A model generated the notes under the pieces. That model searched no databases. It was not told where the DNA came from and worked only from the letters and a program-made list of their open reading frames with translations. 34,715 nt of DNA from Acidobacteriaceae bacterium (GTDB taxonomy: Bacteria; Acidobacteriota; Terriglobia; Terriglobales; Acidobacteriaceae): NCBI GenBank assembly GCA_030041435.1, contig JASHNW010000125.1:1-34715 (forward strand). The letters run 5' to 3'. Every line of letters begins with the position of its first letter. Position 1 is the first letter of the stretch. Positions 8,001 through 31,454 of this stretch are shown piece by piece. Made by a program: the position numbers and the translations under genes.

Positions 8001-9204
8001 TGGCATCGAGAGAGTTCCGGAAATGGATGGCGGAGCCATCGTGGCGCAATTGTTCGTACCGCCGGTGGACGGGTTCCTGCGCGACATATCAAATCCTGAA
8101 TTCCAGATCCCCGGACCATTGCTGGACTCCACGGGCCAGCTTGCCGGGTATTGGCTTGCGGAACTGCGCCGGTGTGATTTCGGCATCTTTCCCTTCTTCG
8201 TGCAGGGCTACCGTCAGTACGCGCCGGCGCCAGCTCCCGGCGGGCGAACCCTGTGCCGCTCAACCATGGGTTTCGAGAGCGGTGTCGTAACGTGCAGCTT
8301 CGATTTTCTGAGCGCGGAGCGAATCGTCTGGGCTCGCATGGAAGGCATGCAGCTGCGCGTCTTCGAGACCGACTGGGTAAAACGGTTCTTTACAGCCCAC
8401 AGGCCGGGCAAGTACTTCTCAGAATCGTGGACGCTTCCAGGCGCGGATGGCATGGTTGTACGGCGCATCGATACGCTGAGCCACGATTTTCTGGAGCAGA
8501 GCTGGGGAATCTGGAGCCGGGTACTGGCGCACCTGATTCTGAGCCGGAATGAGCTGGATTTCTGGTATGACCTGCCCGCGAAAGGTCGTCGGCGCATCGA
8601 CTGGCTGCTTGGCAGAGTAGCTGCGAAGGACGCTGTGCGTATCTGGGCCCACGAACGTTTCCTGCTGGAACTGGATCCTCCGGATATTGAAATCCTCCCG
8701 GCAGAGAGCGGGCAGCCGTCGGTGCGATGTTCCGACCTAGCGCCGCTGGGCGAGGCGCCAACGATTTCAATCACACACAGCGGAGGCACGGCAGCAGCTG
8801 TCGTGCACGGCGCTGGAGCGCCGGTCGGCATTGATTTGGAAGTGGCGCGCGAACGCCGGTCGTCGGCATGGATCAGCGGCGCTTTCGCTGATGCGGAGCT
8901 GCAGTTCCTCGATGGCGACACCGCGGAGGTGCTGGCCCTCTGGTGCGCCAAGGAGGCGGCGGCTAAAACATGCGGCCAGGGCCTGGGGGGCAGGCCGGAC
9001 GAGTGGATCATCGAAAGCCTCTCCGCGGACCGGCGGTCTTGCGTCGTCCGCCGCGGAAACAGAGCGTTCGATGTCTGGCTGTGGTGGAACGGGGAGGAAT
9101 CCGTTGCTCTCTGTCACCGAATGCACAACGGGCAATCCCCGGAAAACGCCGGTCTCGCAAACCGGGAGGAGGAACGGCATGAAGCCTATGCGGTCGGAGA
9201 TTGA
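5029..9204 (+). CDS. PUFA/enediyne-like PKS subunit: degenerate KS - AT - DH - PPTase
   Basis: The protein has 1391 residues. Residues 1-390 begin like a ketosynthase (GIAVVGMAMRGG, then a FW at the usual place) and later keep the KS-like stretch ALALKREADAERDGDAVYAI. The whole region is far shorter than a KS and has no Cys-His-His triad. AT follows at about 395-720 with GHSNG (Ser496) and RPYHTPFF supplying His. A hot-dog dehydratase spans about 835-1130, with His850 in NHMLG and the Asp1033/Gln1037 pair in LLDSTGQ. A C-terminal Sfp-type phosphopantetheinyl transferase, about 1235-1360, has GIDLE (Asp1269, Glu1271) and WCAKEAAAK (Lys1308-Glu1309, Lys1313). The order is close to PfaC plus PfaE, or to the DH-PPTase end of enediyne PKSs. 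The PPTase probably loads the ACP domain of the second PKS and the free ACP encoded next. It overlaps that ACP gene by 26 bases. Confidence 0.9.
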   Translation: MRPADQNPGIAVVGMAMRGGDYATAAEFWQQSLASAVSPSANAGPAPAADTPLGSLLSDALADAHWSELRDMPALVACSGRMFDASVREASSVVARRPASANSARDLECLREAARRLRDQNASAILAVAIEEGPAWRGVALALKREADAERDGDAVYAILQPEDIPSTCAVAEICLPANDSIEATEWRALRARIADPERVVPQTRAAVRRCESEFDRMAAVVRIAFALHTRIIPPSEGVPAEPGTGFYETPEPLPWIHGDVRSPRHGIVLLRDSTGILSGAVLREYTGSHPHSSEALVPQKEWEVFTIAAPDRARLLEDARDLLAAIEACPNRFAGGAYSTGAGAYRLAIVGKNGPDFAAKLRQALQAIPRSRRRPQIAEGVYYGEPADAAQFNGKLAFLFPGFNSEYPGMFRDLCLHFPSVREWFDCMDRFAGLRHGFFPSDLVFPPPGGMAAEEREAMERELKLGGPSSLVASLAMFDLLRQLGVEPDCIAGHSNGENAALISAGILQCPTKESVFDIIQVVTTHFRKTGRPHVEGFYLAVSGLSCEQIAEVVAASDERVCVAMENCSNQMVLYAYAEEDARVRRRLEEAGGLCLSLAAERPYHTPFFGAQADFLRSTYSSIGIGPGRYPVYSTALAAPFPDDPENIRAMALLQWTQPVRFQDTIRRMYEDGVRIFVEAGPDATLTGFVKDILRGQNHLAVASNSRHKDGLEKVLQVIAALFALGRTTGRFSPAPKGKFPLPKSQQAVAPDVVEGPAIDGDQEWRSVLLQLHFALMNDFLESQRRVLSAAAASLCEPEAALSEHAHASSGKKTARPAPMLGKILEHDGRRLYAERLISIENDTFLLNHMLGRSISRRQPELHALPIVPFTMTMEIIAEAALSLVGSGRVIALSDMRGFRWLAADRGRLRIGVEAEALSSLGGGAAVRVRVFELDAAAQRSLAFEGTVHLASDYPASPQPLEIRFERPAAPEITTEFFFEECTYNGRVFRGIERVPEMDGGAIVAQLFVPPVDGFLRDISNPEFQIPGPLLDSTGQLAGYWLAELRRCDFGIFPFFVQGYRQYAPAPAPGGRTLCRSTMGFESGVVTCSFDFLSAERIVWARMEGMQLRVFETDWVKRFFTAHRPGKYFSESWTLPGADGMVVRRIDTLSHDFLEQSWGIWSRVLAHLILSRNELDFWYDLPAKGRRRIDWLLGRVAAKDAVRIWAHERFLLELDPPDIEILPAESGQPSVRCSDLAPLGEAPTISITHSGGTAAAVVHGAGAPVGIDLEVARERRSSAWISGAFADAELQFLDGDTAEVLALWCAKEAAAKTCGQGLGGRPDEWIIESLSADRRSCVVRRGNRAFDVWLWWNGEESVALCHRMHNGQSPENAGLANREEERHEAYAVGD

Positions 9205-10996: not shown

Positions 10997-13900
10997 ATGC
11001 AGCCCTTTGCATACATCGCCGTTACGCCTGTCCATCTGTGCGATCCATCGCTGGCTCTTACTGCCGCGCACGCCGGCGGAATGGGCATTCTCGATTTCGA
11101 ATTCTGCGATGTCGACGGGCGCGCCTCCGCCACCCGCAATCTGCGCTGGCTGGTGCGGAGCGCGTCGGAACCGGGCGACTGCATCGGCCTGAGAATTTCC
11201 GCTAGTCAGGCTGACGAGGCCGAAGAACTGCTGAAGTTGCTGCGCGGTCGGCAGCACACTCTCATCGTGTCCGCGGATTCGCCGGATGACTTTGCCCGCG
11301 CAGAGAGCCTGAAGGACGAATCTACGCTCCTGATCGCGGAACTTACATCCGCAGGGCTGCTGGGGGCGATTCGCCATCAGCCGTGGTGGGGCGGGTTCAT
11401 TGCAAGAGGGGCGGAAAGCGGCGGATGGGTGGGTGAGGACTCCGCGTTCCTTCTCGCGCAGAAGTTTGCTGCGGAATGCACTGCGCCTTTTTATGTACGG
11501 GGCGGGATTGGCCCGCACAGCGCGGCGGCATGCCTGGCAGCCGGCGCAGCGGGAATCGTGCTCGATGATCAGTTGCTCCTGTTGCCCGAATCTCCGCTTC
11601 CTCCGGAATGGCGAAAGATTATCGAGAAGGCCGCCGGCCAGGATTGCGTCGTGGTCGGGGAGAGACTTGGCAAACCATGCCGCATCCTGAGCCGGCCCGG
11701 ATTGAAGGGAGGCACCGGACTGCGGTCGCTCGCAGCGCAGATTGAGCTGGCCGATGAAGCCTGGCGTTGGCCCGGTGAGGCAAACGCGCAGGTTGGCTGG
11801 GGAGACCCGGAGAAATACGCGTGGCCTGCCGGCCAAGCGCTCGGCTTTGCGGCCTCACTGCGCGACACATACGGGAACGCAGCGCGGCTGTTCCGCGGAA
11901 TCGTGGCGTCTGCGACAGAGAGCTTTGCTGGCGCCCGCGCGATGCGCTCTCTGGCGCCGGAGTCGCCGTTGGCTCAATCCCACGGCACACGTTATCCCAT
12001 TGTTCAGGGTCCGATGACGCGAGTCAGCGATCGTGCGGAGTTCGCCGCCGCGGTCGCGCGGAATGGAGCGTTGCCGTTTCTGGCGCTGGCTCTCATGCGC
12101 CAGGCGCAGGTGGCGCAGCTGCTGGAGGCAACGAAAAATCAGCTGGGGTCCCTGCCCTGGGGCGTGGGGATTCTCGGGTTTGCGAGCGAGGAGTTGCGAC
12201 GCGAACAACTGACAGCGGTGCGCGATGCCCAGCCGCCCTTCGCTCTGATTGCCGGAGGGCGCCCCGACCAGGCTGCCGAACTGGAGCGCGAGGGAATTGC
12301 CACCTATATCCATGCACCCACGGCCTCTTTGCTCAAAATGTTTCTGGAACAGGGCGCACGCCGCTTCGTGTTTGAGGGCGCCGAGTGTGGCGGGCACGTG
12401 GGCCCGTTCACCAGCTTCGCGTTATGGGACGACGCGATGCGTGTGCTCCTGCCGGCGGCAACCGCGCCCGCGACCGCCGCAAGCCTTCATATTCTCTTCG
12501 CAGGCGGCATCCATGATGCTCGATCTGCGGCCATGGTCGCCTCCCTCGCAGCTCCGCTCGCGCGACTCGGCGTTCGCGTGGGCGTGTTGATGGGCACCGC
12601 GTATCTCTTCACAGAAGAAGCGGTCACCAGTGGCGCAATCGTGCCCGGATTCCAGGCACGAGCCATCGGTTGCGAGCGCACGGTTACGCTCGAAGTGGGC
12701 CCGGGCCACTCTATCCGCTGCGCAGAGTCGCCTTTCGGTGGGCAATTCTATTCCGATCGCCGCCGGATGATGGCGGCCGGTATGCCTCCGGCAGAGGTTT
12801 CCGCCGAACTGGAGCGGCTTGGACTAGGCCGTTTGCGGCTGGCGTCGAAAGGCATCGAACGCGACGGGGACCAGCTTAGGAACTGCGGTGAGGAGAAGCA
12901 GCAGGCCCAAGGCATGTACATGATCGGTCAGGCCGCGACCATGCGCTCGAGCGTCAGCTCCATGGCCGAACTGCACGAAGAGGTGTCCCTGCAGTCGCAC
13001 GATTTCCTGCCGGTTAAAACGGCAGTGACACCTTCCGTGGGCGATGGCCGGCATGGCTGCTCTCCCGTCGCGATCGTAGGGATGGCGGTGCTGGCGCCCC
13101 GCGCGCAGGAGCCGCACCAATTCTGGCGCAATCTGCTGGATAAGGTGAACACCATTACGGAAATCCCGGCACGGTACTGGGATTGGCGGCTGTTCTTCGA
13201 CAGCGACACCAAAGCGCCGGACAAGACCTACTCGCGGTGGGGTGGCTTCATGGACGACGTGTCATTCGATCCGGTGCGCTTCGGCATACCGCCCAAATCG
13301 CTTCGCTCCATCAGCCCCGGACAGCTCCTCGTGCTTGAAGCGGTCCGCCGCGCGCTGGCCGATGCCGGGCTGGAGTCGGGCCGCTTCGACCATGAGAACA
13401 CTTCCGTGATTTTGGGCAGCGATGGCAGCAGCTTCTATCACAATCAATGCTTCTCCCGATCGATCGTCCCGCTCGTGACCGAGTTTCCCGAACAGGTGTT
13501 CCGGCGGCTTCCGGAGTGGACCGAGGAATCCTTTCCTGGCATTCTCAACAACGTGAGCGCCGGACGGGTAGCCAACCGTTTCAACTTTGGTGGAACGAAC
13601 TTTCTGGTAGACGCAGCCTGCGCGTCGTCGCTCAAAGCGGTTGAATTGGCCGTTCAGGAACTCGAGACCGGACGCAGCAATATGGTTGTGGTGGGCGGCC
13701 TGGACGTAGCCCAGACTCCGGCGTCCTACATCGCATTCAGCAAGACGCAGGCACTCTCCCCGCGAGGCCGAGCCCAGACTTTCGACAAAGCTGCTGACGG
13801 AATCGTCATCAGCGAAGCGGTAGCGGTGGTTATCCTCAAGCGGCTCGAAGACGCGGAGCGGGACGGCGATACGATTTACGCGATCGTCGAGAGCGTGGCC

Positions 13901-16900
13901 AGTTCCAGTGACGGCAAAGCGATGGGGCTAACCGCCCCGCGCCCTCTGGGCCAGAAGCTGGCCTGCCGGCGCGCCTACGAGAGGGCTGGAGTTGCGCCGC
14001 GCTCTATCGGACTTTATGAGGCGCACGGCACCGGCACAGCCGTCGGTGATGCGGCCGAGCTTGAAACCATCAGCTCGCTGCTGCGCGTGGATGGAGCGCC
14101 ACCCGCAAGTTGTGCCATTGGTTCGCTGAAATCGCTGATCGGTCACACCAAGACGGCGGCTGGCGTTCTCGGCCTGATTAAAGCCGCCCTAGCGCTGCAC
14201 CACAAAACGCTGCCGCCCCACGGCGGAGTCGAGAAACCGCTCGACCCTATCCTTGAGGACGACTCGCCGGTCTTCCTCCTCAAAGAGCCGCAGCCGTGGC
14301 TGGCTCATGCCGATCGCCCGCGCCGTGCTGCGGTGAGCGCCTTCGGTTTCGGCGGCACCAACACACACGCCGTACTGGTCGAGTACCGGGGGGCAGCTTC
14401 GCGGGTGCCAGGGGCTGCCGACCGGCCCTGCGAGTTATTCCCGCTGCGCGCCCACGACCCGAGTGAACTCGAGGTCGAGGCCCGTCATTTGCTCGACGCT
14501 TTGCGCGGCGGTGACTTCGCGCATCTCGCCGACCTGGCGTATACGTGCGGCGAGCGCGCCTGGCGAGCGCGCAGCCATCCATGGGTGCTCTCTATCGCAG
14601 CCGGCAACCAGCCGGAACTGATAGTTGCACTGGAGACGGCTATTGGAGCGATCGGCACCGGCAGGTATGAAAAGTTGCCGGCCCACATCCGCATCGCCCA
14701 CGCTGAGAAAATGGGCAGGCTGGCGTTTCTGTTTCCCGGTCAGGGCTCGCAATATCCTGACATGCTGCGCGAGTTGGCCCTTTATTCCGACGTGATGCGT
14801 TCCTGTCTTGAGTCAGCTGTCCGGCAACTCGAGACATGGCTGCCCCGGCCTCTGGAGCAATACATCTATCCTCCCGCCGCCTTCACGGAAGAAGGGGAAT
14901 CGCGCCAGCGTGCGGCATTTGCTGCGACCGAAATCGCCCAGCCTGCAATCGGTGCTGTTTCCCTCGCCTGTTTCGATCTGCTCGCAGCCCTCGGCATACA
15001 TCCCGAAATGGCTTGCGGACACAGCTTCGGTGAGTTCACCGCGCTGGCGGCGGCCGGGGCGCTGGACCGAACGGAATTCTGGAACCTGGCGGCTGCGCGC
15101 GGCCGTGCTATGGCTTCCGCGAGCAACGTTCGCGGAGGAATGGCGATGGTGCGCGCCCAGCGGGCACAGGTTGCGGCGTGGCTGCAAAATCACGATGGCC
15201 TGGTCCTGGCGAACCATAACGCTCCGTTGCAGTGCGTGATTTCCGGCGCGGCGGATCAGGTCGACGATGCCGTAAAAGAGCTGACTGAGAGCGGCCTGAC
15301 CTGTACGCGGCTGCCGGTCAGCGGCGCTTTCCACTCGCCATTAATGGCAGGCGCGCAGGAGCCGCTGACACGTGCCATCGATGCGTGCTCATGGGTTTCT
15401 CCGCGGATTCCCGTTTATTCGAACGCCTCGGGCGAGCCGCACGGTCCCGGCACGGAACGCATTCGCGCGCAGTTGCGCGGGCATCTCCTCAGTCCCGTGG
15501 AATTCGTCTCCGCAATCGAAGCGATGTATCGCGACGGCGCTCGCATCTTTGTGGAGTGCGGACCCCGGAATGTGCTCACGGGACTCGTGCGCCAGACTCT
15601 GGATTCGCGCGAGCACGTGATCGTGCCGCTCGACAGCGGTTCCGGCAGCTGGCGGGCCCTTCTCATTGGCCTTGGCGAACTGATGGCGGCCGGAGTCGAA
15701 TACGACACCTGCGCGCTGTTCGCGGGCCATTCCACGCGGTTGCTCGACTGGACGAACCTGAACCCGTCTCGTCCCGCGGAATTGCCCGGGACAGCATGGG
15801 TAGTGAACGGGCTTATGGCGCGTCCTCGCGATGAAAAGGTGTCGCAGTGGGGGCAGGAGCCTCACCTGACGGCCGACAGCGCCGCTGAATTGCGCCGCAG
15901 GAATGTCGTGCAGGCAGCAGCTCCGGCCGTCCCGGGACTGCTGAGCCACGGGACTTTGACTCCACAGCTAACCGCCGGGCAATCAAGCAAGCTTGCCGCT
16001 CTGCAGGCGCATCAGGAAACCATGCAACGATTCCTCGCCGTACAGGAAGATCTGGTGAAGGCATTTCTCGGCGTCCCGACCTCCCCCGCGACCAGTGCGC
16101 CAGGGCCGGCTCTGCATCCACTGGAAGCGAACGGTCACTCGTCGCAGCCTGCCGCGAATCAACTGCCCGGGACGGCCCGGCCGGAAGCCGAACCGGTCGC
16201 CGCCCAGGAGGCATTCGCCACCCTGGGCAAGGCCGAACTGGAGAGGATATTTCTGCATCTGGTGAGCGAACATACCGGCTATCCGATCGAAGTGCTGGGG
16301 CTCGATATGGACCTCGAAGCCGAGGTAGGGGTCGACTCCATCAAGCGCATCGAGATCCTGGATGCGTTCCGCAAGAGCGCCCCGCCCGATGTTGCCGAAT
16401 CCATGCGCACCTACATGGAGAAACTCACCCGAGCCAAGTCGCTCAACGCGATCATTACGCGGATCGCTGAATTCGCCACAAGGCCGGCAGCCGATGAGCG
16501 GGCGCTCGTTGTCGGGGCTCTGCCGGCGCCGCGGGAGCCGGAACCGGTGTCCCATGAGGCGGCTCTGCAGGAAGAGGTGCCATCGCCTGAAGCTGAAGAG
16601 GATTGCCCGCGGTATGTAATTCAGGCGCGGTCGGAGGAGACATCCCGGGGGCCACGCATCGAGCCACGCGGCCTCTACGTGCTGACGGGAAGTTCGGCGC
16701 CCGCCACAGAGGAAGTTGTTCATGCATTGACCATCCGTGGGGCATCGATCGTCCGAATCGACACTTCTTGCCTCGAAGATGCGGAGCACGTGACCGCCGC
16801 GCTCGAGCAGGCGCGCCGGGAACACGGACCCGTGCAGGGCATCGTCCACCTTGCCGGGATTGATCCGGCGCAGCCAGCGGAATCGCTCGCGCAATGGCGT

Positions 16901-18208
16901 CGCGGGACCCGCATCCACGTGAAGAGCCTGTTCCAGCTGGCGCACGCGTGCGCCTCCGATCTCCAGCACGCCACGCAACCGGTTTTGCTCTCGGCGTCTC
17001 TCCAGGATGGCCGCTTCGGACGAGAAGGCGAAGGGCCTGGCAGCCTCGCGGCTGCAGCGTGCTCCGGCCTGCTCAAGACCCTTTCCGGGGAGTGGCCGCA
17101 CGCTCAGCTCAGGGCTGTGGATTGCGACGGCGCGATGGCTCCCAAGGAGATCGCCGAGGCCATCGTGAAGGAGTTGCTGACACCGTCGAGTGCGATCGAG
17201 ATCGGGTATTCTCGCGGAACTCGCATGGTCTTCGACGCTGTTGCCGCACCGCTGGACGGACGTCCTCTCGCATCGGAACAGCCGCGCGCGGATTGGGTGT
17301 GGCTTTTGACCGGGGGCGCCCGCGGGATTACAGCCGAGATTGCCGCCAGCGTGGCGCAGAGCGGCGGTACCCTGATCGTCGCGGGCAGGACGGAAATTCC
17401 GGAGGACGGAGGGGACGAATTCGAAGGCGTCACGGGTCCGGCCTTGCGCGACGCCCTGATTACGCAGGCGCGCTCAAAGGGCGAAGACGTGATTCCTGCA
17501 CGCATGGAGGCCCGCGTCCGCGCCATCCTCGCTGCCCGCGAGATTCGTCAAAACCTGAAACGTATGCGCACGGCCGGAGCCAGAGCGGTCGAGTATCACG
17601 CTGCCGATCTTCGTGACGAGTCGGCAGTCGCCAGCCTGCTTGCCTCAATCTACAGCCGGTTCGGTCGCCTCGACGCCGTAGTCCATGGAGCCGGTATAAT
17701 CGAGGACAAACTGGTGGCCGAAAAGCAACAGGCATCCTTCGACCGCGTATTCGATACCAAAGCTGACAGTGCCTGGCTGCTGACCCGGTACCTGCAGCCT
17801 CAGGGCCTCAGGCTGCTGATCATGTTCGGTTCAATCGCAGGAGAGTTTGGAAATCCCGGCCAGGCAGACTACGCCGCTTCCAACGAGCTTCTCAACCGCC
17901 TCGGCTGGTGGATCAAGCGAGCCTGGAGTCATACGCGCGTAGTCACCATCAACTGGGGACCCTGGGTAGGCGGAATGGCCACCGAACCTGTTCGGCAGAT
18001 GCTTCGAGGGCGCGGCATCGTGCCCATTGCGCGTGGAGCCGGCGTACGATTCTTCGATCAGGAGATTGCCCGGGCTGCAGCGGGAGAAGCGGAGGTCGTC
18101 GCAGGACGCGGTCCTTGGAGCGAAAGGCAGCATGAGCGGAGCGACATTCCGCTTGGCGATCTTATCGAGAACCTGCATGGTCTCACCGAAGCTGCCTGGG
18201 TAATGTGA
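10997..18208 (+). CDS. PUFA-synthase-like PKS: tandem PfaD/nitronate-monooxygenase-like domains - KS - AT - ACP - KR
   Basis: The protein has 2403 residues and the start is preceded by AGGGAG. Residues 1-310 and 335-640 are two copies of a flavin-binding nitronate-monooxygenase/PfaD-like barrel. Copy 2 has EGAECGGHVG with His467; copy 1 has GAESGGWVG with Trp144 in that place. KS spans about 688-1130 with Cys875 (VDAACASS), His1010 (EAHGTGT) and His1050 (LIGHTKTA). AT starts at 1241 (FLFPGQGSQYP) with Ser1343 (GHSFGE) and AFHSPLM. A single ACP lies around Ser1781 (VGVDSIKRIEIL). KR runs from about 1890, with TGGARGI at 2105 and Ser2279/Tyr2292. The order matches PfaA with PfaD moved to the N-terminus, but with one ACP instead of a tandem array. 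With the DH of the other PKS this supplies beta-carbon reduction, dehydration and possibly enoyl reduction. Confidence 0.93.
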   Translation: MQPFAYIAVTPVHLCDPSLALTAAHAGGMGILDFEFCDVDGRASATRNLRWLVRSASEPGDCIGLRISASQADEAEELLKLLRGRQHTLIVSADSPDDFARAESLKDESTLLIAELTSAGLLGAIRHQPWWGGFIARGAESGGWVGEDSAFLLAQKFAAECTAPFYVRGGIGPHSAAACLAAGAAGIVLDDQLLLLPESPLPPEWRKIIEKAAGQDCVVVGERLGKPCRILSRPGLKGGTGLRSLAAQIELADEAWRWPGEANAQVGWGDPEKYAWPAGQALGFAASLRDTYGNAARLFRGIVASATESFAGARAMRSLAPESPLAQSHGTRYPIVQGPMTRVSDRAEFAAAVARNGALPFLALALMRQAQVAQLLEATKNQLGSLPWGVGILGFASEELRREQLTAVRDAQPPFALIAGGRPDQAAELEREGIATYIHAPTASLLKMFLEQGARRFVFEGAECGGHVGPFTSFALWDDAMRVLLPAATAPATAASLHILFAGGIHDARSAAMVASLAAPLARLGVRVGVLMGTAYLFTEEAVTSGAIVPGFQARAIGCERTVTLEVGPGHSIRCAESPFGGQFYSDRRRMMAAGMPPAEVSAELERLGLGRLRLASKGIERDGDQLRNCGEEKQQAQGMYMIGQAATMRSSVSSMAELHEEVSLQSHDFLPVKTAVTPSVGDGRHGCSPVAIVGMAVLAPRAQEPHQFWRNLLDKVNTITEIPARYWDWRLFFDSDTKAPDKTYSRWGGFMDDVSFDPVRFGIPPKSLRSISPGQLLVLEAVRRALADAGLESGRFDHENTSVILGSDGSSFYHNQCFSRSIVPLVTEFPEQVFRRLPEWTEESFPGILNNVSAGRVANRFNFGGTNFLVDAACASSLKAVELAVQELETGRSNMVVVGGLDVAQTPASYIAFSKTQALSPRGRAQTFDKAADGIVISEAVAVVILKRLEDAERDGDTIYAIVESVASSSDGKAMGLTAPRPLGQKLACRRAYERAGVAPRSIGLYEAHGTGTAVGDAAELETISSLLRVDGAPPASCAIGSLKSLIGHTKTAAGVLGLIKAALALHHKTLPPHGGVEKPLDPILEDDSPVFLLKEPQPWLAHADRPRRAAVSAFGFGGTNTHAVLVEYRGAASRVPGAADRPCELFPLRAHDPSELEVEARHLLDALRGGDFAHLADLAYTCGERAWRARSHPWVLSIAAGNQPELIVALETAIGAIGTGRYEKLPAHIRIAHAEKMGRLAFLFPGQGSQYPDMLRELALYSDVMRSCLESAVRQLETWLPRPLEQYIYPPAAFTEEGESRQRAAFAATEIAQPAIGAVSLACFDLLAALGIHPEMACGHSFGEFTALAAAGALDRTEFWNLAAARGRAMASASNVRGGMAMVRAQRAQVAAWLQNHDGLVLANHNAPLQCVISGAADQVDDAVKELTESGLTCTRLPVSGAFHSPLMAGAQEPLTRAIDACSWVSPRIPVYSNASGEPHGPGTERIRAQLRGHLLSPVEFVSAIEAMYRDGARIFVECGPRNVLTGLVRQTLDSREHVIVPLDSGSGSWRALLIGLGELMAAGVEYDTCALFAGHSTRLLDWTNLNPSRPAELPGTAWVVNGLMARPRDEKVSQWGQEPHLTADSAAELRRRNVVQAAAPAVPGLLSHGTLTPQLTAGQSSKLAALQAHQETMQRFLAVQEDLVKAFLGVPTSPATSAPGPALHPLEANGHSSQPAANQLPGTARPEAEPVAAQEAFATLGKAELERIFLHLVSEHTGYPIEVLGLDMDLEAEVGVDSIKRIEILDAFRKSAPPDVAESMRTYMEKLTRAKSLNAIITRIAEFATRPAADERALVVGALPAPREPEPVSHEAALQEEVPSPEAEEDCPRYVIQARSEETSRGPRIEPRGLYVLTGSSAPATEEVVHALTIRGASIVRIDTSCLEDAEHVTAALEQARREHGPVQGIVHLAGIDPAQPAESLAQWRRGTRIHVKSLFQLAHACASDLQHATQPVLLSASLQDGRFGREGEGPGSLAAAACSGLLKTLSGEWPHAQLRAVDCDGAMAPKEIAEAIVKELLTPSSAIEIGYSRGTRMVFDAVAAPLDGRPLASEQPRADWVWLLTGGARGITAEIAASVAQSGGTLIVAGRTEIPEDGGDEFEGVTGPALRDALITQARSKGEDVIPARMEARVRAILAAREIRQNLKRMRTAGARAVEYHAADLRDESAVASLLASIYSRFGRLDAVVHGAGIIEDKLVAEKQQASFDRVFDTKADSAWLLTRYLQPQGLRLLIMFGSIAGEFGNPGQADYAASNELLNRLGWWIKRAWSHTRVVTINWGPWVGGMATEPVRQMLRGRGIVPIARGAGVRFFDQEIARAAAGEAEVVAGRGPWSERQHERSDIPLGDLIENLHGLTEAAWVM

Positions 18209-21740: not shown

Positions 21741-22046
21741 CTAACTTGGCCTGCTGGTACCAAAGCCAGACTTTACCGCGGCGACGTCCTCGCGCAGTTG
21801 ACGTATTTCGCTGAGGAGAGCTTCCATTTTGTTCTGCCCCGCCCGCTGCTGGCTGGCCTCGGCGCGAATCTTCGCGGTTTCGGCAGCGGCCTGATTCCAT
21901 GCGTCGGCAGCTATCGAGCTCAGGTCCATTCCCGCTTTCACAACCTGAACCAGAATCGGCCGCGCAATCGACCCGCCAACAACCGTCACCGCTGCGCCGA
22001 TCGCACAGCTTTTCCAACTGAATTTTCTCAGCATCCAGCTAAGCAT
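21741..22046 (-). CDS. Small one-TM/coiled-coil protein, DUF5132-like (paralogue A)
   Basis: The protein has 101 residues. It starts MLSWMLRKFSWKSCAIGAAV, with a Gly/Ala/Val-rich segment that can cross or lie in the membrane (residues 14-35). An Ala/Glu/Arg-rich helix follows, and heptad-like EALLSEIRQLREDVAAVKSG near the C-terminus. The pattern resembles the small DUF5132/DUF1490-like proteins that accompany some metal-type transporters. It is a clear paralogue of 28657-28953, sharing the SWKS-x-A-x-GAA start, P-x-LV-x-V-x-K-x-GM and the LR-x-D-x-AAVK tail. ATG 22046 is chosen because GGAGGAG precedes it closely; a frame to 22073 adds nine residues that span that ribosome site. It is divergent from the SDR gene. 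The family name is from memory and should be checked by profile search. Confidence 0.78.
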   Translation of the reverse strand: MLSWMLRKFSWKSCAIGAAVTVVGGSIARPILVQVVKAGMDLSSIAADAWNQAAAETAKIRAEASQQRAGQNKMEALLSEIRQLREDVAAVKSGFGTSRPS

Positions 22047-24148: not shown

Positions 24149-26290
24149 TTATATATCGGTCGCGGATGCCCGCTCACCCGCGCGAGTGAGCGACACAAGC
24201 GACATGCGGCGCAGACTGGCGATCAAACGCACGATGGCCGCTTCGTCCATCGAGTGGCCATTCGACTGTAGCATGAGCAGGATCTCCCGTACGGTCCGCG
24301 GCTCACTACACAACGAGAGAATCGGCCGCAGGTCGCAGTTGGCGATCACCTTGGTGCGGCCCCACGTATTCTTGGTAACGAACTTCGTGTAAATGCCGGA
24401 CAGGCGGAGAGACGGATAGCGTTCCGCCAGTTCCAGTTCCGCGAGTCGCGAGTCTGCGTCGGAGCTGAAGAAAAATGGCTGTCCGGTTCCTGCGCCGTCG
24501 CCATTTTCCCGCCAGAACCCGTCACGCACGTTCACGCACACCGAGACCTGCTCCATCCTGAGCCTTACAACCGAATCGAGCAGGGCCCCGTATCCGCCCT
24601 CCTTCGCCAGCATGAAATTCTCAAGAACACACCGGTCCATCCCCGACTCCAGAAAGCACCAGATGGCGTCTTCCGGGCTCTCTACAATTGGCTCCCCGGC
24701 AATGTTGAACGAGGTGTTGAGCAGCATGGGAACCCCGGTCCCCGAGTAAAACCGCTTAACCAGCGCATAAAGACGCGGCGTCGACTGCGTCACCGTCTGG
24801 ACGCGGCCAGTGCCGTCCACATGAACGACGGCTGGAACCAGATGCGCTTTTTCGGGACGGAAGGCCATCACCCGCATCATGAACGGGCTCTCCTCCGCCC
24901 CCTTCTCGACGTCGAACCAGTCGCTCACAGCCTCCAGCAGCACACAGGGGGCAAACGGACGAAAAGATTCGCGGAATTTGACGCGGTTGTTCAGGCGCTC
25001 CTTCGCTTCCGGATCGCGCGGATCGCAGAGAATGCTCCGATGCCCCAGCGCCCGCGGTCCCAGTTCGGAGCCACCCTCGAACCAACCCACAATTTGGCCC
25101 GAGGTCAGCTCCCGGACTGTGTCGCCCACAATGTCGTCCGATTCGCTTGCCACAAGGCCTGGCGCGCTGACTATCGCTGCAGAGATCTCTTCCTTCGCGT
25201 ATCGCCTCCCAGCGCTGTCTTCCCGCAGAGCATCCGTTCGGCCTTCGCCCGTCAGCTTCCACAGTCCGTAGTAGGCGGCTCCGATTGCGGTGCCGCTGTC
25301 CTCCGCGGCCGGCATGAAGAAACACGACTCGAATGTTTTCTGGCGGACGATCTTTTCGTTCGCCACACTGTTCAACGCGGTTCCGCCGGCAAAACACAGG
25401 TTCGGGCTGCTGTTGGCGCGGCGCAATTCCCCGATCAGGAACATCAGCGCATGTTCCAGCGCCTCTTGCGTGGACGCTGCAAGGTCGCGATACTCCTCCT
25501 GCCGCAGCGGCCATCGGTCGTTGTGGGGAAACCGTTCCACGACGCCATCCGTGTAGTTGAACTCTCCGTCGCAGATCTCGAAGAAATCCGATACCGGAAT
25601 GCGCGGGCAGCCGTACGGAGCAAGCCCCATCACCTTGCCCGGCCCGTCGGAGAAGGAACCGAAGATCTGTCGCCCGACAGACGAGTACATCTCGCCCAGC
25701 GAGCGGAATGGCCGCATCCCGCGGTACTGTTCGCGCCTCTTGGCAAAGACCCATTTCCTGATCGGCGTTACGGTAACACCGCTGGCGTGATAAAGGGAGA
25801 TTGTTTCCGCAGTTGCAGGTGCCTGGCTCGCAACGCATGTATCCATCTGCCGCTGGCTCACCGTCGCTCGCTCTTCTTCGGAAAGGTCGTCCCAGCGCGA
25901 TCCCGACGCGTCCACTACCAGCACCGCGCTGTCGCGGAAGCCGCTTTGCACGAAGGCCCCCACAGCGTGCCCCAAATGATGGCTGATCGTGAGCGTGGGG
26001 ATTCTGTGGTGTTCGGTCCTCAGCACCGGATTCAGCGAGAGATCCATCCAGATCGATCGAAATGGCTCGGTCGGGCAGTTGACCACCATGTTCAGGTCAG
26101 AGGCTTTGATTCCGGCCGCGTCCAGACAGTAGCGAATGGCCAGGGAACTCTCGCCGGCAAGCAGCTCGGCGCGTTTCATCCGCAGCAGCCGTTCCTCCTG
26201 AATGGCGGCAACGACGCACTCTCCGTGCAAAAGACAGGCGGCCCCGTTGTGTGACGAGGCGAGACCCAGCACCCAGGGTTTCGATTTCAT
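24149..26290 (-). CDS. NodU/CmcH/TobZ-family carbamoyltransferase with C-terminal extension
   Basis: The protein has 713 residues. The N-terminal Kae1-like domain has LGLASSHNGAACLLHG, VVAAIQEERLLRMKR, the metal His cluster ISHHLGHAVGAF near residue 100, and LCFAGGTALNSVANEKIV. The C-terminal YrdC-like/carbamoyltransferase part has GWFEGGSELGPRALGHRSI, NNRVKFRESFRPFAPCVL and LLNTSFNIAGEPIVESPEDA. Members use carbamoyl phosphate and ATP to carbamoylate hydroxyls (NodU on Nod factors, TobZ on tobramycin). The family domain ends near residue 560. The extra about 150 residues end in a small helical region (SEPRTVREILLMLQSNGHSM...) that looks like a PqqD-type or winged-helix domain, which is unusual. 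It lies 7 bases downstream of the ABC exporter gene, so the two are co-transcribed. Confidence 0.92.
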   Translation of the reverse strand: MKSKPWVLGLASSHNGAACLLHGECVVAAIQEERLLRMKRAELLAGESSLAIRYCLDAAGIKASDLNMVVNCPTEPFRSIWMDLSLNPVLRTEHHRIPTLTISHHLGHAVGAFVQSGFRDSAVLVVDASGSRWDDLSEEERATVSQRQMDTCVASQAPATAETISLYHASGVTVTPIRKWVFAKRREQYRGMRPFRSLGEMYSSVGRQIFGSFSDGPGKVMGLAPYGCPRIPVSDFFEICDGEFNYTDGVVERFPHNDRWPLRQEEYRDLAASTQEALEHALMFLIGELRRANSSPNLCFAGGTALNSVANEKIVRQKTFESCFFMPAAEDSGTAIGAAYYGLWKLTGEGRTDALREDSAGRRYAKEEISAAIVSAPGLVASESDDIVGDTVRELTSGQIVGWFEGGSELGPRALGHRSILCDPRDPEAKERLNNRVKFRESFRPFAPCVLLEAVSDWFDVEKGAEESPFMMRVMAFRPEKAHLVPAVVHVDGTGRVQTVTQSTPRLYALVKRFYSGTGVPMLLNTSFNIAGEPIVESPEDAIWCFLESGMDRCVLENFMLAKEGGYGALLDSVVRLRMEQVSVCVNVRDGFWRENGDGAGTGQPFFFSSDADSRLAELELAERYPSLRLSGIYTKFVTKNTWGRTKVIANCDLRPILSLCSEPRTVREILLMLQSNGHSMDEAAIVRLIASLRRMSLVSLTRAGERASATDI

Positions 26291-26297
26291 GATCGTG

Positions 26298-28580
26298 TCA
26301 GCGACGCTTCGTCCCGCTGCCTTTCTTTTTCGGTTTTGGCGCCGCCCCGCTCCTCACAGGTAGCTGCGGCTTTGCTTCGACAGTGGGCGGAGGGCTGGGC
26401 TCCGGCGCGACTGCAGCGGCTTCCTGTTTGTCAGCTCGCCCGACCGCCGCGGGTGCCGCAGTGTCCGGCGGCTCGACTGCAGGCGCTGCCTCCGTGTCCG
26501 GCCCCTCGGGCTGCGCCACTGCATCGGCTGCACTCTCGCCGGTCTGGATCCGCCAAAGTGCCGCGTACAGGCCATTGGCGCGCACCAGCTCTTCGTGTCG
26601 GCCCTGTTCGATGACACGACCTTCGTCCATCACGTAAATCACGTCTGCGTTGCGCACGGTTGACAGGCGGTGAGCAATCAGCAGGATGGTCCGGCCCTCC
26701 GCGGCCACCCGCAAGGAATTTTGAATGGAGGCTTCCGTCTCGAAATCAATTGCCGAGGTCGCCTCATCGAACAACAGGACAGAGCGGTCCGACAAGACCG
26801 CACGTGCGATGGCGATACGCTGTTGCTGTCCGCCGGAAAGCTGAGTGGTGCGCTCGTTGAGCGGCGTATGGTAACCCTGCGGAAGTTCTTCAATAAAAGA
26901 ATCCGCACCTGCAATCTGCGCGGCGCGCTTGACCTCGGCGTCGGAGGCATCGGGCCTCGCGTATGCGATGTTCTCACGTACTGTTCCACCAAACAGGAAC
27001 GTATTCTGCGGCACCAGAGCCATCTGGCCGCGCAGTGCATCGAGCCCAACTTCCCGGGTGTCAACGCCTCCGATGCGAATCATCCCTTCATTCTGGTCGT
27101 AGAATCGCAGCAGTAGTTTCAGGACAGTCGTCTTGCCGGCGCCAGTCGGTCCCACAAGAGCAGAGGTCTTGCCGCCAGGCAGTACCAGGCTTACGCCGCG
27201 CAGCACCGGCTTCTCGGCATCGTAGCCGAATGTGACGTTGTCGAAGACGATTTCGCCGCGCGCGGCCGAATCGGACAGCTGTCCCGGGCCGGCTGTAACA
27301 GCGGGCTTCCGATCCATCGTGCGGATCACGCGCGTCATCGATACCCTGGCTCGCTGGTACTGTTCGGCCGACATACCCAGCCGTCCGAGAGCCGTGAGCA
27401 GTCGCAGGGACGCGAAGCTCATCGAGTTATAGGCGCCCGTGGTCACGTCGCCGGATTTCACCAGTGCCGCGCCGTAAATGAGCGTGCTCAGAAATCCCGC
27501 GCCCACCGTAAGCTGGATCGCCGGAACATAGCAAGCGCTCAGCTCCGCCATTTGTCGCATGCTCTCCGCCCACTGCTCCCCGGCGTGCGCCACGCGCCGG
27601 GCCTCGTAGTCCTGCTGGGTGAAGCTGGCGATGGTTGCCATACCCTCTATGTTCCCGTGCAGCATGGCGGAGAGGCGCCCCTCATTTTCGAGAGTCAGCT
27701 CGTAGCGTTTCAGGATTTTCTTCAGAAGGGCGCGTGAAATTAAGTAAACCGCCGGCCCGATTGACAGATGGACGAACGCCAGCAGCGGAGAAGTCGCGAA
27801 AAACGTCGTCAGCACAATGACACAATTCGCGACAATGGTAATGATCGGATCCACGCCAAGGGCGATGAACTTGCCGATGCGCGCGAGATCGCCGTCGAGC
27901 ACCGACATCCATGCGGATACCGGCCGCATTTCAAGCACACCTGGGTCGAGTTCCTGCAAATGGCGATAAACTTCGTTGCGCAAGTCGTTCTGAATCGCAA
28001 TCGCCAGGCGGTCAGACTGAATTGTGTGCAGATAGCTGAAAAACGAGTCCAGCACCCACACAACAGCGGCGGCCGAGCCAAGAAACGTCAGCTGCGAAGC
28101 AGGGCTGCGGAACCCCAGCTTACGGATCATCGAATGCGGTCCGCGCGTGAGCAGATCGATCCCGGCGCCAACCATGGCAGGGGGAGCAGCCTCGAACAGC
28201 CGATCGGCAAACGCTATGCCGAGCGCGGTCGTCGCCATCCCGGCGTGTTTCGGACTGTGCTTCAAATAACTGATGAATGGGTTTTCGCCGGGCACGGGCG
28301 ACCAGCCCCCGCGATCAGGCGTGCCCGCCGGCACAGGCAAGGCGCTGCGAGAATCCGTGAGCCCTGTCGCGACCATCGTCACCATGGCCTGCGCCCCCAG
28401 ATATGGCTCGTAGACAACCAGAACGCTCCCTGTGAGTGCCTTCGCGCTGCACGAACGCACTCCAGGGAGTGCCTGCACTCGTTTCTCGAGCTCCGCCGCA
28501 AGGTCCGGGCGATCGAGAATCGTGGGGGCGTTCAGGCGCAGTCTTCCACGGATCGACGATCTGATCTGCAGTTGCGTCAA
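26298..28580 (-). CDS. ABC exporter (TMD-NBD half transporter) with N-terminal HMA-like domain
   Basis: The protein has 760 residues. Residues 1-80 (IRSSIRGRLRLNAP ... LPGVRSCSAKALTGSVLVVY) match the CxxC-less HMA-like domain usually met at the N-terminus of P-type ATPases of the CtpC kind. A type-I exporter TMD follows at about 150-420, then an NBD with Walker A GPTGAGKTT (about 478), the Q-loop, LSGGQQQRIAIARAVL (about 577) and LLFDEATSAID. The last about 100 residues are Pro/Ala/Glu-rich and end in KPKKKGSGTKRR. The TTG start at 28580 is needed to keep the HMA-like domain; the next Met lies inside it. It probably works as a homodimer exporting the product. Three small membrane proteins of the kind that accompany HMA-like ATPases are encoded close by. 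Confidence 0.9.
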   Translation of the reverse strand: MTQLQIRSSIRGRLRLNAPTILDRPDLAAELEKRVQALPGVRSCSAKALTGSVLVVYEPYLGAQAMVTMVATGLTDSRSALPVPAGTPDRGGWSPVPGENPFISYLKHSPKHAGMATTALGIAFADRLFEAAPPAMVGAGIDLLTRGPHSMIRKLGFRSPASQLTFLGSAAAVVWVLDSFFSYLHTIQSDRLAIAIQNDLRNEVYRHLQELDPGVLEMRPVSAWMSVLDGDLARIGKFIALGVDPIITIVANCVIVLTTFFATSPLLAFVHLSIGPAVYLISRALLKKILKRYELTLENEGRLSAMLHGNIEGMATIASFTQQDYEARRVAHAGEQWAESMRQMAELSACYVPAIQLTVGAGFLSTLIYGAALVKSGDVTTGAYNSMSFASLRLLTALGRLGMSAEQYQRARVSMTRVIRTMDRKPAVTAGPGQLSDSAARGEIVFDNVTFGYDAEKPVLRGVSLVLPGGKTSALVGPTGAGKTTVLKLLLRFYDQNEGMIRIGGVDTREVGLDALRGQMALVPQNTFLFGGTVRENIAYARPDASDAEVKRAAQIAGADSFIEELPQGYHTPLNERTTQLSGGQQQRIAIARAVLSDRSVLLFDEATSAIDFETEASIQNSLRVAAEGRTILLIAHRLSTVRNADVIYVMDEGRVIEQGRHEELVRANGLYAALWRIQTGESAADAVAQPEGPDTEAAPAVEPPDTAAPAAVGRADKQEAAAVAPEPSPPPTVEAKPQLPVRSGAAPKPKKKGSGTKRR

Positions 28581-28656
28581 AAGCTATCACTCAGCCCTAG
28601 ATACGGGCGGTTGGTATCTGCGAAAAGTCCGCGAGGTGCGAAATCCGTCCAGAATT

Positions 28657-28953
28657 TCAGGCCAAGCCGGCTTTGGCTTTCACGGCCGCCAGATCGCTGC
28701 GCAATGCACGCAGTTCTTCAAGCAGCGCCTGACTGCTGAAGGAACTGGCCCGCGATTGCGCGGCCTCGTCGCGAACTCTTGCCATTTCGGCCGACGCCTG
28801 GCGGATCACATCCTGGGTTGAGGAGGCTACACCCATTCCCACCTTGGCCACGGAAACCAGCAAGGGGTGAACGACAGCACCGCCCACCAAGGATGTGGCG
28901 GCTCCCATCGCAAAGCTCTTCCAACTCATCTTATGGAGCAAAAACTTGAGCAT
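28657..28953 (-). CDS. Small one-TM/coiled-coil protein, DUF5132-like (paralogue B)
   Basis: The protein has 98 residues. It starts MLKFLLHKMSWKSFAMGAAT with a Gly/Ala/Val membrane-type segment (SLVGGAVVHPLLVSVAKVGM). An Ala/Arg/Glu-rich helix and a coiled-coil end (ALLEELRALRSDLAAVKAKA) follow. It is a paralogue of 21741-22046, with about half of the aligned positions identical by eye. It stands 76 bases upstream of the ABC exporter gene, same strand, suggesting a physical partner of the exporter. The Shine-Dalgarno site (AAGGA) is rather far from ATG 28953; Met9 is an alternative start but lacks a better site. The likely role is a scaffold, chaperone or regulator of the transporter, by analogy with mycobacterial PacL proteins and P-type ATPases. 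Confidence 0.8.
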   Translation of the reverse strand: MLKFLLHKMSWKSFAMGAATSLVGGAVVHPLLVSVAKVGMGVASSTQDVIRQASAEMARVRDEAAQSRASSFSSQALLEELRALRSDLAAVKAKAGLA

Positions 28954-28995
28954 CGTCTTATACCGTCCTTCTCGAGAGTTAGTAGCACGGATACT

Positions 28996-29256
28996 TCAGT
29001 TGATACCGATGTTCGAATTGCCTGATTGGGTGTAAACGGCTTCTTTCGCGCGTTCCGCCGATCTCAGAGCCGACGCTTCCGCGAGAATGTCCTGTACATC
29101 TTCGACCACCAGCATGCCGGTGCGGCGCGCGTGCTTGCCGGCCACCTCCAGTCCATCTTCCGATTTCACGATCATCCACGCGAGAGCGCGTCGCAAAAGC
29201 GGCCCATTTTTCAGAGCGAACAGTCCTGCTGCCGAACCCAGTAGGAAACTCCACAT
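28996..29256 (-). CDS. Small membrane-anchored protein, DUF6110/DUF1490-like
   Basis: The protein has 86 residues. It starts MWSFLLGSAAGLFALKNGPL, a short hydrophobic N-terminal segment. An amphipathic region and VVEDVQDILAEASALRSAER follow, with a polar tail. The Gly-x-x-Gly hydrophobic start plus a D-x-x-AEA helix recalls the DUF6110/DUF1490 small proteins found beside HMA-domain P-type ATPases. It is related in design, but not clearly in sequence, to the two DUF5132-like paralogues. GAGG lies about 10 bases before ATG 29256. It is 42 bases upstream of paralogue B and belongs to the same minus-strand unit as the exporter. Function unknown; exporter partner is the favoured inference. Confidence 0.72.
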   Translation of the reverse strand: MWSFLLGSAAGLFALKNGPLLRRALAWMIVKSEDGLEVAGKHARRTGMLVVEDVQDILAEASALRSAERAKEAVYTQSGNSNIGIN

Positions 29257-29371: not shown

Positions 29372-30115
29372 TCATCGCACGACAGGTTTATGGATTTCCA
29401 GCGCGAATCCAAGGGCCATCAGGCCGCGCTCGGGCCGAAAGATCTGGGTGTAATCAAGCAGCCCCGCCTCGCGAAGGAATTCCCTCACTTCGGGAACCGT
29501 GAACTTCTCTTTCGTGATCGACTTGCCAAGGCGCGGATCCTCCGCGATTCCCAGCCGAATCAGTTCCTTTCTCGCCTCATCCCGAAGCCGGTCGAACTCC
29601 GCGAGAGCGGCAGGATCGGGATCCCTCCGCACGTCGTGAATCATCGCAATCCCGCCCGGCTTCAGGAGGCGGAAAATCTCGCGTAGCGCCCGGGGCCGGT
29701 CCTGCCAGTGATGAAGAGTGGAGCGGCTCACAATGATATCGGCGAAATCCGACGGCAGACGCATATCGTGAGCGTCATCCACCATCAGCTCGATGCGGTT
29801 GCCAAACCCCTCGCTGCCAATCGCCCGCCGGCCTTGTTCGATCATTTCGGGATCGACATCGCTCCCGACGATGCGCAGACCCTCCAGTTCCGGCATACGC
29901 GCCAGATATACGAGAAAGCGCGCGGTTCCCGTGCCGACGTCGAGCAGCGTCGCGCCGGGAGAACGAGGAATCGCTTCTTCCAACACCCGCCTGCCCATGA
30001 CCTGATCGAATGGCGCAACGTAATGCGCCGTGTAGTGGTCGTAAACCTGAGGTGTGCAGCGCACATGAGCCTGGTTCAAAACTACGTCTTCACCGGTCGC
30101 GGAGTCGCTCGGCAT
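29372..30115 (-). CDS. SAM-dependent methyltransferase (class I)
   Basis: The protein has 247 residues. Motif I is LLDVGTGTARFLVYLARMPE (about residues 53-72), and the acidic residue after strand 2 is in IVGSDVDPEMIEQGRR. DFADIIVSRSTLHHWQDRPRA, the Methyltransf_11-like post-motif, follows, then LLKPGGIAMIHDVRRD. It is a normal-length O-, N- or C-methyltransferase of small molecules; the acceptor cannot be read. AAGGA lies about 9 bases before ATG 30115. It starts 3 bases after the stop of the upstream isopropylmalate-synthase-like gene, so the two are co-transcribed and perhaps act in one precursor pathway. It could equally be a tailoring enzyme of the lipid, as NodS is for Nod factors. Confidence 0.88.
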   Translation of the reverse strand: MPSDSATGEDVVLNQAHVRCTPQVYDHYTAHYVAPFDQVMGRRVLEEAIPRSPGATLLDVGTGTARFLVYLARMPELEGLRIVGSDVDPEMIEQGRRAIGSEGFGNRIELMVDDAHDMRLPSDFADIIVSRSTLHHWQDRPRALREIFRLLKPGGIAMIHDVRRDPDPAALAEFDRLRDEARKELIRLGIAEDPRLGKSITKEKFTVPEVREFLREAGLLDYTQIFRPERGLMALGFALEIHKPVVR

Positions 30116-30118: not shown

Positions 30119-31318
30119 CTAATTCCTTTCCCTGGTTCTCACCGCTGCTACTGCGCTGGCAAGCAGCGCTTCTTCATCGCGCCACGCGTCCCTGGGCGCT
30201 GCCTTTGCAATCTCAACCACTTGAGTCAGATCCGCGCCGCTCAGCTTCAGGCCCATCCGCTCCAGCCTTTCTGAGAACGCCGCTCGGCCACTGTGCTTGC
30301 CCAGCACCAGTCTGGTCCCCGGAGCTCCGACCCGCTCGGGGCGGAACGGCAAATATGTGTCGGGATGCTTCAGGAGACCGTCCTGATGAATGCCCGCTTC
30401 CGTGGCCAGAATATTTCTGCCAACCACAGCCTTGTTGGGCGCGACGGGCACCCCGGTAAGTTCCGAAACCGTCTGGCTCAGCCCCCACAGTTTCTCCGTC
30501 GCGATGGCCGTCCGCATCCCCAGCGCTGGTCCATTGAGCGCGATCGCCATCACTACCTCTTCCAGAGCCGTGTTGCCCGCCCGCTCACCAATCCCATTCA
30601 CCGTGCACTGCGCAATCGGAACTCCCATGGCCAGCGCCGTCAGCGTATTTGCCGTCGCTAATCCAAGGTCATTATGGAAATGAACAGCAATGGCAGCCTT
30701 ATTAACGTTCGACACTCCGTCCTGAATGCGCCGTAACTGTTCCTGTACGAGCCCAGGTGTCAGAATACCAACCGTATCGGGGAAACCAATCACGAGCGCG
30801 CCGGCGTCGATCGCCTCCTGATAACATTCGCAGAGTACATCTGGCTCTGTACGGCTGGCGTCTTCCGGGCTAAATGCGACAAAATCGAACTTCCGGCGTG
30901 CATACTCAACCGATTCCCGGATAGTCGAGCGCAGTTGCGCCACCTTCATGCGGAGCTTGTACTCGCGGTGCAGCGGACTTGTACCGATGAAGAGACTTAC
31001 CGAGCGCTTATCTCTCGGGCAGTCTGCAAGGCTATCCCATGCGCGATCGATGTCGTCGCGCAGGGTCCTGCAGAGAGCGGAAACCACGGGGCCCGGACTG
31101 GCATCTGCAACTCTTCTGACGGCCTCAACCTCGCTCGCCCCACAAGCGGGAAAGCCCGCGTCAATTGAGCTTACGCCTGCTTCACCTAAGAGTTTCGCAA
31201 TTGTAACCTTGGCGGAGGGATCCAGAGACGCTCCAGGCATTTGCTCACCATCGCGAAGCGTGGTATCGCTCAGATAGACAAGCCGAGGCTTCGTCATTGC
31301 GTTCATAAAAGTCCACAT
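30119..31318 (-). CDS. Homocitrate/2-isopropylmalate synthase-like enzyme without regulatory domain
   Basis: The protein has 399 residues. It has DTTLRDGEQMPGASL (Arg-Asp-Gly and metal Asp) near residue 18, VHFHNDLGLATANTL (metal His-x-His) and VNGIGERAGNTALEEVVMA, then GIHQDGLLKHPDTY. These are the marks of the LeuA/NifV family, which condenses acetyl-CoA with a 2-oxoacid. It ends near residue 399, so the about 110-residue leucine-sensing domain of true LeuA is absent, as in NifV and secondary-pathway alkylmalate synthases. A cluster copy suggests supply of a chain-extended 2-oxoacid or amino acid. No leuC/leuD/leuB partners are in the window, so the pathway would borrow the primary ones. 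Met codons at 31318, 31306 and 31297 are all possible starts; none has a clear ribosome site. Confidence 0.85.
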   Translation of the reverse strand: MWTFMNAMTKPRLVYLSDTTLRDGEQMPGASLDPSAKVTIAKLLGEAGVSSIDAGFPACGASEVEAVRRVADASPGPVVSALCRTLRDDIDRAWDSLADCPRDKRSVSLFIGTSPLHREYKLRMKVAQLRSTIRESVEYARRKFDFVAFSPEDASRTEPDVLCECYQEAIDAGALVIGFPDTVGILTPGLVQEQLRRIQDGVSNVNKAAIAVHFHNDLGLATANTLTALAMGVPIAQCTVNGIGERAGNTALEEVVMAIALNGPALGMRTAIATEKLWGLSQTVSELTGVPVAPNKAVVGRNILATEAGIHQDGLLKHPDTYLPFRPERVGAPGTRLVLGKHSGRAAFSERLERMGLKLSGADLTQVVEIAKAAPRDAWRDEEALLASAVAAVRTRERN

Positions 31319-31454
31319 TTGGGTAATAATGGCCTGGGATACTCGGCCCGCTACTCTGGGGTCGAAATATTGAGATCATAGCACCACGCAGTCGGCTCAG
31401 ATACGAAATCCGAACACCGTCTGTAGATTTTTTGCGATAAGGGTGAGGGGCAAT
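31319..31454. promoter_or_regulatory. Divergent intergenic region, probably holding two promoters
   Basis: The 136-base AT-richer gap separates the minus-strand isopropylmalate-synthase-like unit from the plus-strand asparagine-synthetase-like gene, so both promoters should lie here. On the minus strand CTATGATCTC (around 31370-31380) offers a TATGAT -10 candidate without a good -35. For the plus-strand gene only the ribosome site is clear: GAGGGG at 31445-31450, which selects ATG 31455 over the GTG at 31443. No operator-like palindrome stands out. Confidence 0.4.

Follow-up and report, generated by a model that had tools for sequence, protein, structure and literature searches.

The arrangement closest to the one described here is that of the mycobacterial effluxosomes, in which the gene for a small membrane protein, PacL, lies beside that of a transporter (CtpC, CtpG or CtpV) with an N-terminal domain of metal-binding type. 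There, PacL1 attaches to CtpC at its metal-binding domain, and the pumps are both stabilised by PacL proteins and collected into patches; conserved residues of the PacL membrane helix are needed, a lysine and two glycines being the most conserved (PMC9374683, PMC13043812). The subject of this article is an ATP-binding cassette (ABC) half-exporter, P0001, with an N-terminal domain of the HMA_2 family, and three small proteins, P0002, P0003 and P0004, encoded near it in a stretch of 34,715 nucleotides, hereafter the window, from an Acidobacteriaceae bacterium (GenBank assembly GCA_030041435.1, contig JASHNW010000125.1). The association of genes for such small proteins with HMA_2-bearing ABC exporters is well supported by sequence comparison.

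Two other systems bear on the comparison. Proteins of the DUF6110 family are described as typically encoded with P1B6 ATPases, and the ferrosome Fez system as a pump together with a membrane protein that is needed for an assembly within the membrane. FezB is a P1B-6 ATPase. DUF6110 was found in two papers in a search of openly accessible publications, and both concern mycobacterial P-type ATPases. That search, outside which most subscription papers and all bioRxiv preprints lay, gave no mention of DUF5132, and there was no paper on a fusion of HMA and ABC modules among the matches listed.

The exporter and its N-terminal domain

The original prediction held that an HMA-like domain lacking CxxC had been fused to a normal exporter core of transmembrane and nucleotide-binding domains (TMD-NBD), and profile searches of the N-terminus bear this out. 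Residues 4–58 match HMA_2 (PF19991) with 36.2 bits against a cut-off of 30 in a Pfam scan of the whole protein, with 41.2 bits when the N-terminus is scanned alone and with 39.2 bits in a search of the genome, where this is the sole HMA_2 match (E ≤ 0.1); ABC_membrane and ABC_tran domains follow. Residues 1–83 contain one Cys and no CxxC. Absence of CxxC is usual for the HMA_2 family. The TTG start is backed by a stop codon two codons 5′ of it and by the alignment of relatives, which begins near the same residue. The predicted structure has strands at 12–17, 41–49 and 52–59 and a helix at 26–36, the second helix being absent from the model.

The TMD-NBD core matches TIGR02204, MsbA and P-glycoprotein/ABCB4, and among solved chains the top scores belong to P-glycoprotein and further exporters of the ABCB type; heavy-metal exporters of the ATM1 type are also among the solved homologues, scoring far under P-glycoprotein. 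Unlike the MsbA and P-glycoprotein-type exporters that it resembles in its core, the protein carries HMA_2 at its N-terminus, and it is not an MsbA equivalog, its score with TIGR02203 being 355 bits against a cut-off of 602. Exporters of this kind align with NCBIfam NF052233, a cyanophycin-associated ABC family, only from about profile position 163 onward.

At least 11 HMA_2-ABC exporters were found in at least ten genomes, all within the phylum of the window, Acidobacteriota. A search for HMA_2 in 297 genomes of this phylum gave 18 matches (E ≤ 0.01) in 12 genomes, six of them ABC exporters. When HMA domain and TMD were searched together, the same six came out on top with two HMA-less exporters, G198 and G015 (E 3.3e-31 or better; next match 1.1e-21). 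A profile of the six, A4, searched in three classes (250, 193 and 148 genomes), added at least five exporters covering the HMA columns (G933, G903, G885, G1050 and G999), the last with two tandem HMA_2 domains. Five aligned exporters are 33–42% identical to that of the window, and a search of genome contigs with the whole exporter found ten loci at 25–37% identity.

The 11 HMA domains, when aligned, share no conserved Cys. Searched as a profile, they also match two P-type ATPases, one in the G999 locus (2e-14) and one in the G238 locus (5e-11), both of them recognised by Pfam as HMA_2 proteins; there is no match in 12 HMA-less exporters or in the exporters of five plasmid relatives. The HMA-less set consists of 11 of the 16 A4 matches from the 148-genome class, plus G198; a 197-residue fragment (G1026) was left out. 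The plasmid relatives are regions analysed from five of 22 records. One HMA-less relative, on a plasmid of Gloeocapsopsis dulcis (L049:5986-7767), lies amid MbtH, acylase and sucrase-ferredoxin genes, perhaps in a siderophore setting.

Of 14 HMA_2 matches at E ≤ 1e-4 among 299 genomes from the phylum of G299 (Mesorhizobium), five were P-type ATPases and nine short proteins, with no HMA_2-ABC fusion at this threshold, which weaker exporters would escape. A4 gave no match at E ≤ 1e-55 among 259 genomes from the phylum of G302. Within the genomes thus covered, which did not take in Cyanobacteria as a group, a single phylum has yielded the fusion.

Small genes beside HMA_2-bearing exporters

Two short proteins had been predicted directly upstream on the strand of the exporter, and there P0002 and P0003 were found, P0002 76 bases 5′ of the exporter and P0003 42 bases beyond P0002. 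P0004, 4 kb off, is a third paralogue, 49% identical to P0002. The small proteins are best explained as a hydrophobic N-terminal helix containing glycine, then a charged helix; the structural model, of low confidence, predicts two helices.

For a comparison of neighbourhoods, 3332 open reading frames (ORFs) of at least 40 residues were taken from 23 loci, amounting to 208,223 bases around HMA_2-bearing exporters versus 199,470 around HMA-less ones, with reversed ORFs as control. A DUF5132-like profile from six seeds found members at E < 0.01 in ten of 11 HMA_2-bearing loci versus none of the 12 HMA-less loci (Fisher p 9.6e-6), and in five of six versus none of 12 when loci without a seed are counted alone (p 7e-4). 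These p-values overstate the case, since the loci are not independent: the HMA_2-bearing exporters group together on the tree, where the domain changes state twice, or once in 28% of bootstrap trees. As the exporters are diverged, the persistence of the pair is nevertheless telling. Two or three different small proteins are present in six of the 11 loci (E < 0.01). In the eleventh locus, G885, a DUF6072 gene overlaps the start of the exporter (105 bits), and a DUF6072 gene also adjoins the HMA_2 P-type ATPase of G999. The five plasmid relatives have no small-gene match in 733 ORFs. The recurrence that had been expected of the small genes beside related exporters was therefore observed.

The cleanest test is a profile built without any window sequence, from four proteins that Pfam assigns to DUF5132. 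Its 13 best non-seed matches (E ≤ 0.08, 3332 ORFs) all lie in HMA_2-bearing loci, and among the window proteins P0003 has an E-value of 2.3e-4, P0004 of 5.1e-3 and P0002 of 0.025, the best reversed ORF having 0.21. The Pfam cut-off itself is passed in four HMA_2-bearing loci for DUF5132 (PF17195; G238a, G238b, G134 and G1050a) and in a fifth, G885, for DUF6072 (PF19549), unlike in the window, whose proteins stay under it. The DUF5132 model was also run on 16 genomes picked because they had an HMA_2 or an exporter match. It hit four places in three of them, none more than about 6 kb from an HMA_2 gene; the other 13 gave no match, and for the genome of the window, which is one of these, this holds at E ≤ 0.1.

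Two types of small protein are separable in alignment, type A, which is DUF5132 proper, and type B, to which P0002, P0004 and relatives in G107, G933, G903 and G134 belong. Each of these four loci has one of either type, and in the window P0003 stands in the place of type A. A type-B profile of four proteins, none from the window, finds P0004 (3.6e-23) and P0002 (3.3e-15) and then seven DUF5132-type proteins at E 2.8e-4 to 0.11, the best reversed ORF being at 0.08. The two types align by hhalign with E 5.5e-7 and probability 92, an E-value that refers to a single pair built from few sequences.

A DUF6110 profile from Bacillota, one of whose four seeds was shortened to 43 residues by the choice of start, has as its five best matches among the 3332 ORFs type-A proteins and P0003, all from HMA_2-bearing loci. 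P0003 reaches E 0.022 (reversed 2.8) by this profile similarity alone, and P0002–P0004 fail the curated cut-off of DUF6110 (PF19605). DUF6110 had four matches (E ≤ 1e-6), spread over three of 199 genomes from the phylum of G301; in Bacillota, three of four DUF6110 genes lie before P-type ATPases with a GRxR N-terminus. The window proteins and their relatives thus resemble the DUF6110 proteins encoded with P1B6 ATPases distantly, by profile, and differ from them in staying under the cut-off and in having an ABC partner.

In Pfam scans at E ≤ 10, P0002–P0004 match neither DUF5132 nor DUF1490, and the direct assignment to known families called for by the original prediction yielded nothing relevant. 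What holds of the proposed likeness to DUF5132 and DUF6110 is a probable distant homology, visible only with profiles made from relatives. The further claim, that such domains and small proteins accompany P-type ATPases, agrees with the two loci that have HMA_2 ATPases, in one case together with DUF6072, and with the three Bacillota genes. The predicted move of this module from P-type ATPases onto an ABC exporter may have run either way, the tree being unrooted. In G999 (L130:8360-14124) two small DUF5132-like genes separate the tandem-HMA_2 exporter from an oppositely oriented HMA_2 P-type ATPase.

The surrounding gene cluster

The features of the window are collected in Table 1. On the (−) strand the genes follow one another with short gaps in the order isopropylmalate-synthase-like enzyme, methyltransferase, P0003, P0002, exporter and carbamoyltransferase. 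By Pfam the wider cluster also includes a TauD-type oxygenase and a sulfotransferase, and reading of the sequence suggests glycosyltransferase and asparagine-synthase-like genes. A 602-residue protein (31443–33251) has an SGGWDTR motif that is asparagine-synthase-like by eye and no Pfam match above cut-off. In the carbamoyltransferase, about 150 residues extend past the end of the Pfam domain (563 of 713) and match no family above cut-off. A transposase-like ORF, IS3-type as read from its sequence, occupies 614–1411, close to the left end. No P-type ATPase is present among 13 window proteins scanned with Pfam.

Table 1. Position of the exporter, the small proteins and the neighbouring enzymes in the window.
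Feature	Position	Strand	Basis and remarks
HMA_2-ABC half-exporter P0001	26298..28580	(−)	760 aa, TTG start; Pfam and solved-chain comparison
HMA_2 domain (PF19991) of exporter	28407..28574	(−)	Pfam; motif GRLRL, without CxxC
ABC_membrane of exporter	27417..28109	(−)	Residues 158–388; Pfam
ABC_tran nucleotide-binding domain of exporter	26754..27203	(−)	Residues 460–609; Pfam
P0002, type-B DUF5132-like	28657..28953	(−)	98 aa; profile of relatives; all-helical, low-confidence model
P0003, DUF5132/DUF6110-like	28996..29256	(−)	86 aa; profiles of relatives
P0004, second type-B DUF5132-like	21741..22046	(−)	101 aa; profile; paralogue of P0002
Carbamoyltransferase	24149..26290	(−)	Directly 3′ of exporter; Pfam; G103 homologue 33%
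S-adenosylmethionine (SAM) methyltransferase	29372..30115	(−)	Pfam
Isopropylmalate/homocitrate-synthase-like enzyme	30119..31318	(−)	Family match; G238b homologue 35%
Polyunsaturated fatty acid (PUFA)-type synthase NMO(ER)-KS-AT-ACP-KR	10997..18208	(+)	Pfam; homologues in G107, G933 loci; KS-region match G885
Acyltransferase and phosphopantetheinyl-transferase protein	5029..9204	(+)	Pfam; probably part of same synthase

The natural-product setting that had been predicted is supported for several loci. The synthase has homologues in G107 (42% identity over 2159 residues) and G933 (50% over 1164, on part of a contig). In G885 the KS region alone matches (33% over 470), as any type I synthase might. 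The G103 locus also has thioesterase and glycosyltransferase genes, and that of G134, by its sequence, would have a type III synthase and a P450. On a Rhodobacteraceae plasmid there is a cluster whose synthase aligns with 93% of the query at 39.6% identity and in which TauD, methyltransferase and phosphopantetheinyl-transferase genes are annotated. As read from the sequence, it also encodes a citrate-synthase-like protein (L156:24596-25732). This protein and the isopropylmalate/homocitrate-synthase-like enzyme of the window suggest that an oxo acid might be joined to the polyketide chain by condensation, so that the product would bear a head group of the alkylmalate or alkylcitrate kind. In the same cluster (strain SC52; L156:30880-33677) an ABC gene is followed by one annotated as prohibitin family; prohibitin-type proteins are known from membrane microdomains.

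A docking site or something else

The explanation that best fits these data, to which we give an even chance, is that scaffolds resembling PacL and DUF5132 proteins dock, independently of metal, on the fused HMA_2 domain and thereby stabilise the ABCB-type exporter or gather it in clusters, the product of the PUFA-type synthase being what it exports. On this ABCB/MsbA-type half-exporter the domain would serve for docking and not as a CxxC metal binder; the small proteins would bind it through their charged helix and one another through their membrane helix. In this way the exporter would be stabilised, several copies of it would be kept together in one patch of membrane close to the synthase, and a lipid-like product would be moved out. 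We infer docking, clustering, substrate and direction of transport. Domain and small gene are present together or absent together, which is the pattern that docking predicts, and a structural, non-metal role is indicated because there is neither a CxxC nor a His-bearing tail. The last 25 residues are without His in all ten small proteins checked, P0002–P0004 included.

Most likely the system works like a PacL platform without being a PacL system, since there is no DUF1490 match, no C-terminal metal motif and no P-type ATPase partner; unlike in the effluxosomes, the partner is an ABC exporter and the setting a polyketide cluster.

Several results weigh against this explanation. The model of the HMA domain is only moderate and has no Foldseek match at E ≤ 0.001, several leading ones being HMA domains. 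The Pfam cut-off for HMA_2 is passed in whole-protein scans by three of the 11 exporters (window, G134 and G999a); seven fall under it (E 1.3e-6 to 6.4e-5), and G238b is unlisted at E 0.01. The HMA_2-bearing exporters may be one clade. Among the small proteins, P0002–P0004 reach no Pfam or NCBIfam cut-off. A seven-member type-A profile gives P0002 an E-value of 0.17 (reversed 0.46) and an ORF of the HMA-less G1050b locus 0.35, and with a 13-member profile P0003 stands at 0.029 versus 0.019 for a reversed ORF. The hydrophobic stretch of P0003 is weak (Kyte-Doolittle, KD, 1.16), and behind this stretch the small proteins have a modest content of Ala (15–23%) and Glu (6–9%), for which reason AE repeats like those of PacL cannot be made out with clarity. 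The small genes of G134 are about 3.6 kb away from the exporter. In the Rhodobacteraceae plasmid cluster the homologous synthase is accompanied by a different ABC gene, and no match to HMA_2 or to DUF5132-like proteins occurs there; the module is therefore probably not required for this chemistry, and goes with the type of exporter instead.

The small proteins might also be accessory subunits or chaperones that sit one-to-one on HMA_2 and stabilise or tune the exporter without clustering it. This fits the genomic association equally, and CtpG of mycobacteria was detected only upon co-expression of PacL2, which is an effect on stability; the two or three different small proteins in six of 11 loci exceed what such a subunit would need, and we regard the idea as possible, if somewhat doubtful. 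That HMA_2 senses or carries a metal, and that the exporter exports a metal complex or a metal-binding product, is unlikely. HMA_2 and genes of the DUF6110 and DUF6072 families do accompany P-type ATPases, in two loci an HMA_2 ATPase lies near the exporter, ATM1-type exporters are among the solved homologues, far under P-glycoprotein as they are, and one HMA-less relative has MbtH and sucrase-ferredoxin neighbours. Against this stand the lack of CxxC in the window and of a conserved Cys in the 11 domains, the tails of the ten small proteins without His, the single HMA_2 gene of this genome and the lipid and polyketide enzymes around it.

A ferrosome-like role, in which the module would build a membrane-bounded compartment or vesicle that stores the lipid-polyketide instead of exporting it, draws on the link of DUF6110 proteins with P1B6 ATPases noted above. 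The ferrosome combines an iron pump of the P-type ATPase class with the FezC cytochrome where an ABC exporter is found here. We think such an organelle quite improbable. It is very improbable that the domain and small genes are leftovers of a metal-resistance island with no functional tie to the exporter. Shared descent of the clustered exporters does explain part of the association; however, the small genes have been kept near diverged exporters in three classes, in varied orientation and mostly among different neighbours, and are missing from the 12 HMA-less and five plasmid relatives.

If docking by HMA_2 is the right explanation, a scaffold of the PacL type would be separated from metal biology, and a docking domain with its small proteins would be a portable means to stabilise and cluster transporters. 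It would account for an ABC exporter that bears a relative of a metal domain without metal ligands. A wider and tentative proposal, the "exportosome", is that the scaffold is a general transporter-organising module: any transporter that gains HMA_2 could be recruited into membrane patches by proteins of the DUF5132/DUF6110 type, which here would couple a lipid-polyketide synthase to a cluster of ABC exporters and in at least one other genome, where an ABC exporter and a P-type ATPase of one locus flank their genes, may be shared by both. The findings provide a functional hypothesis for DUF5132 and DUF6072, and a handle on how the products of PUFA-type synthases may leave the cell.

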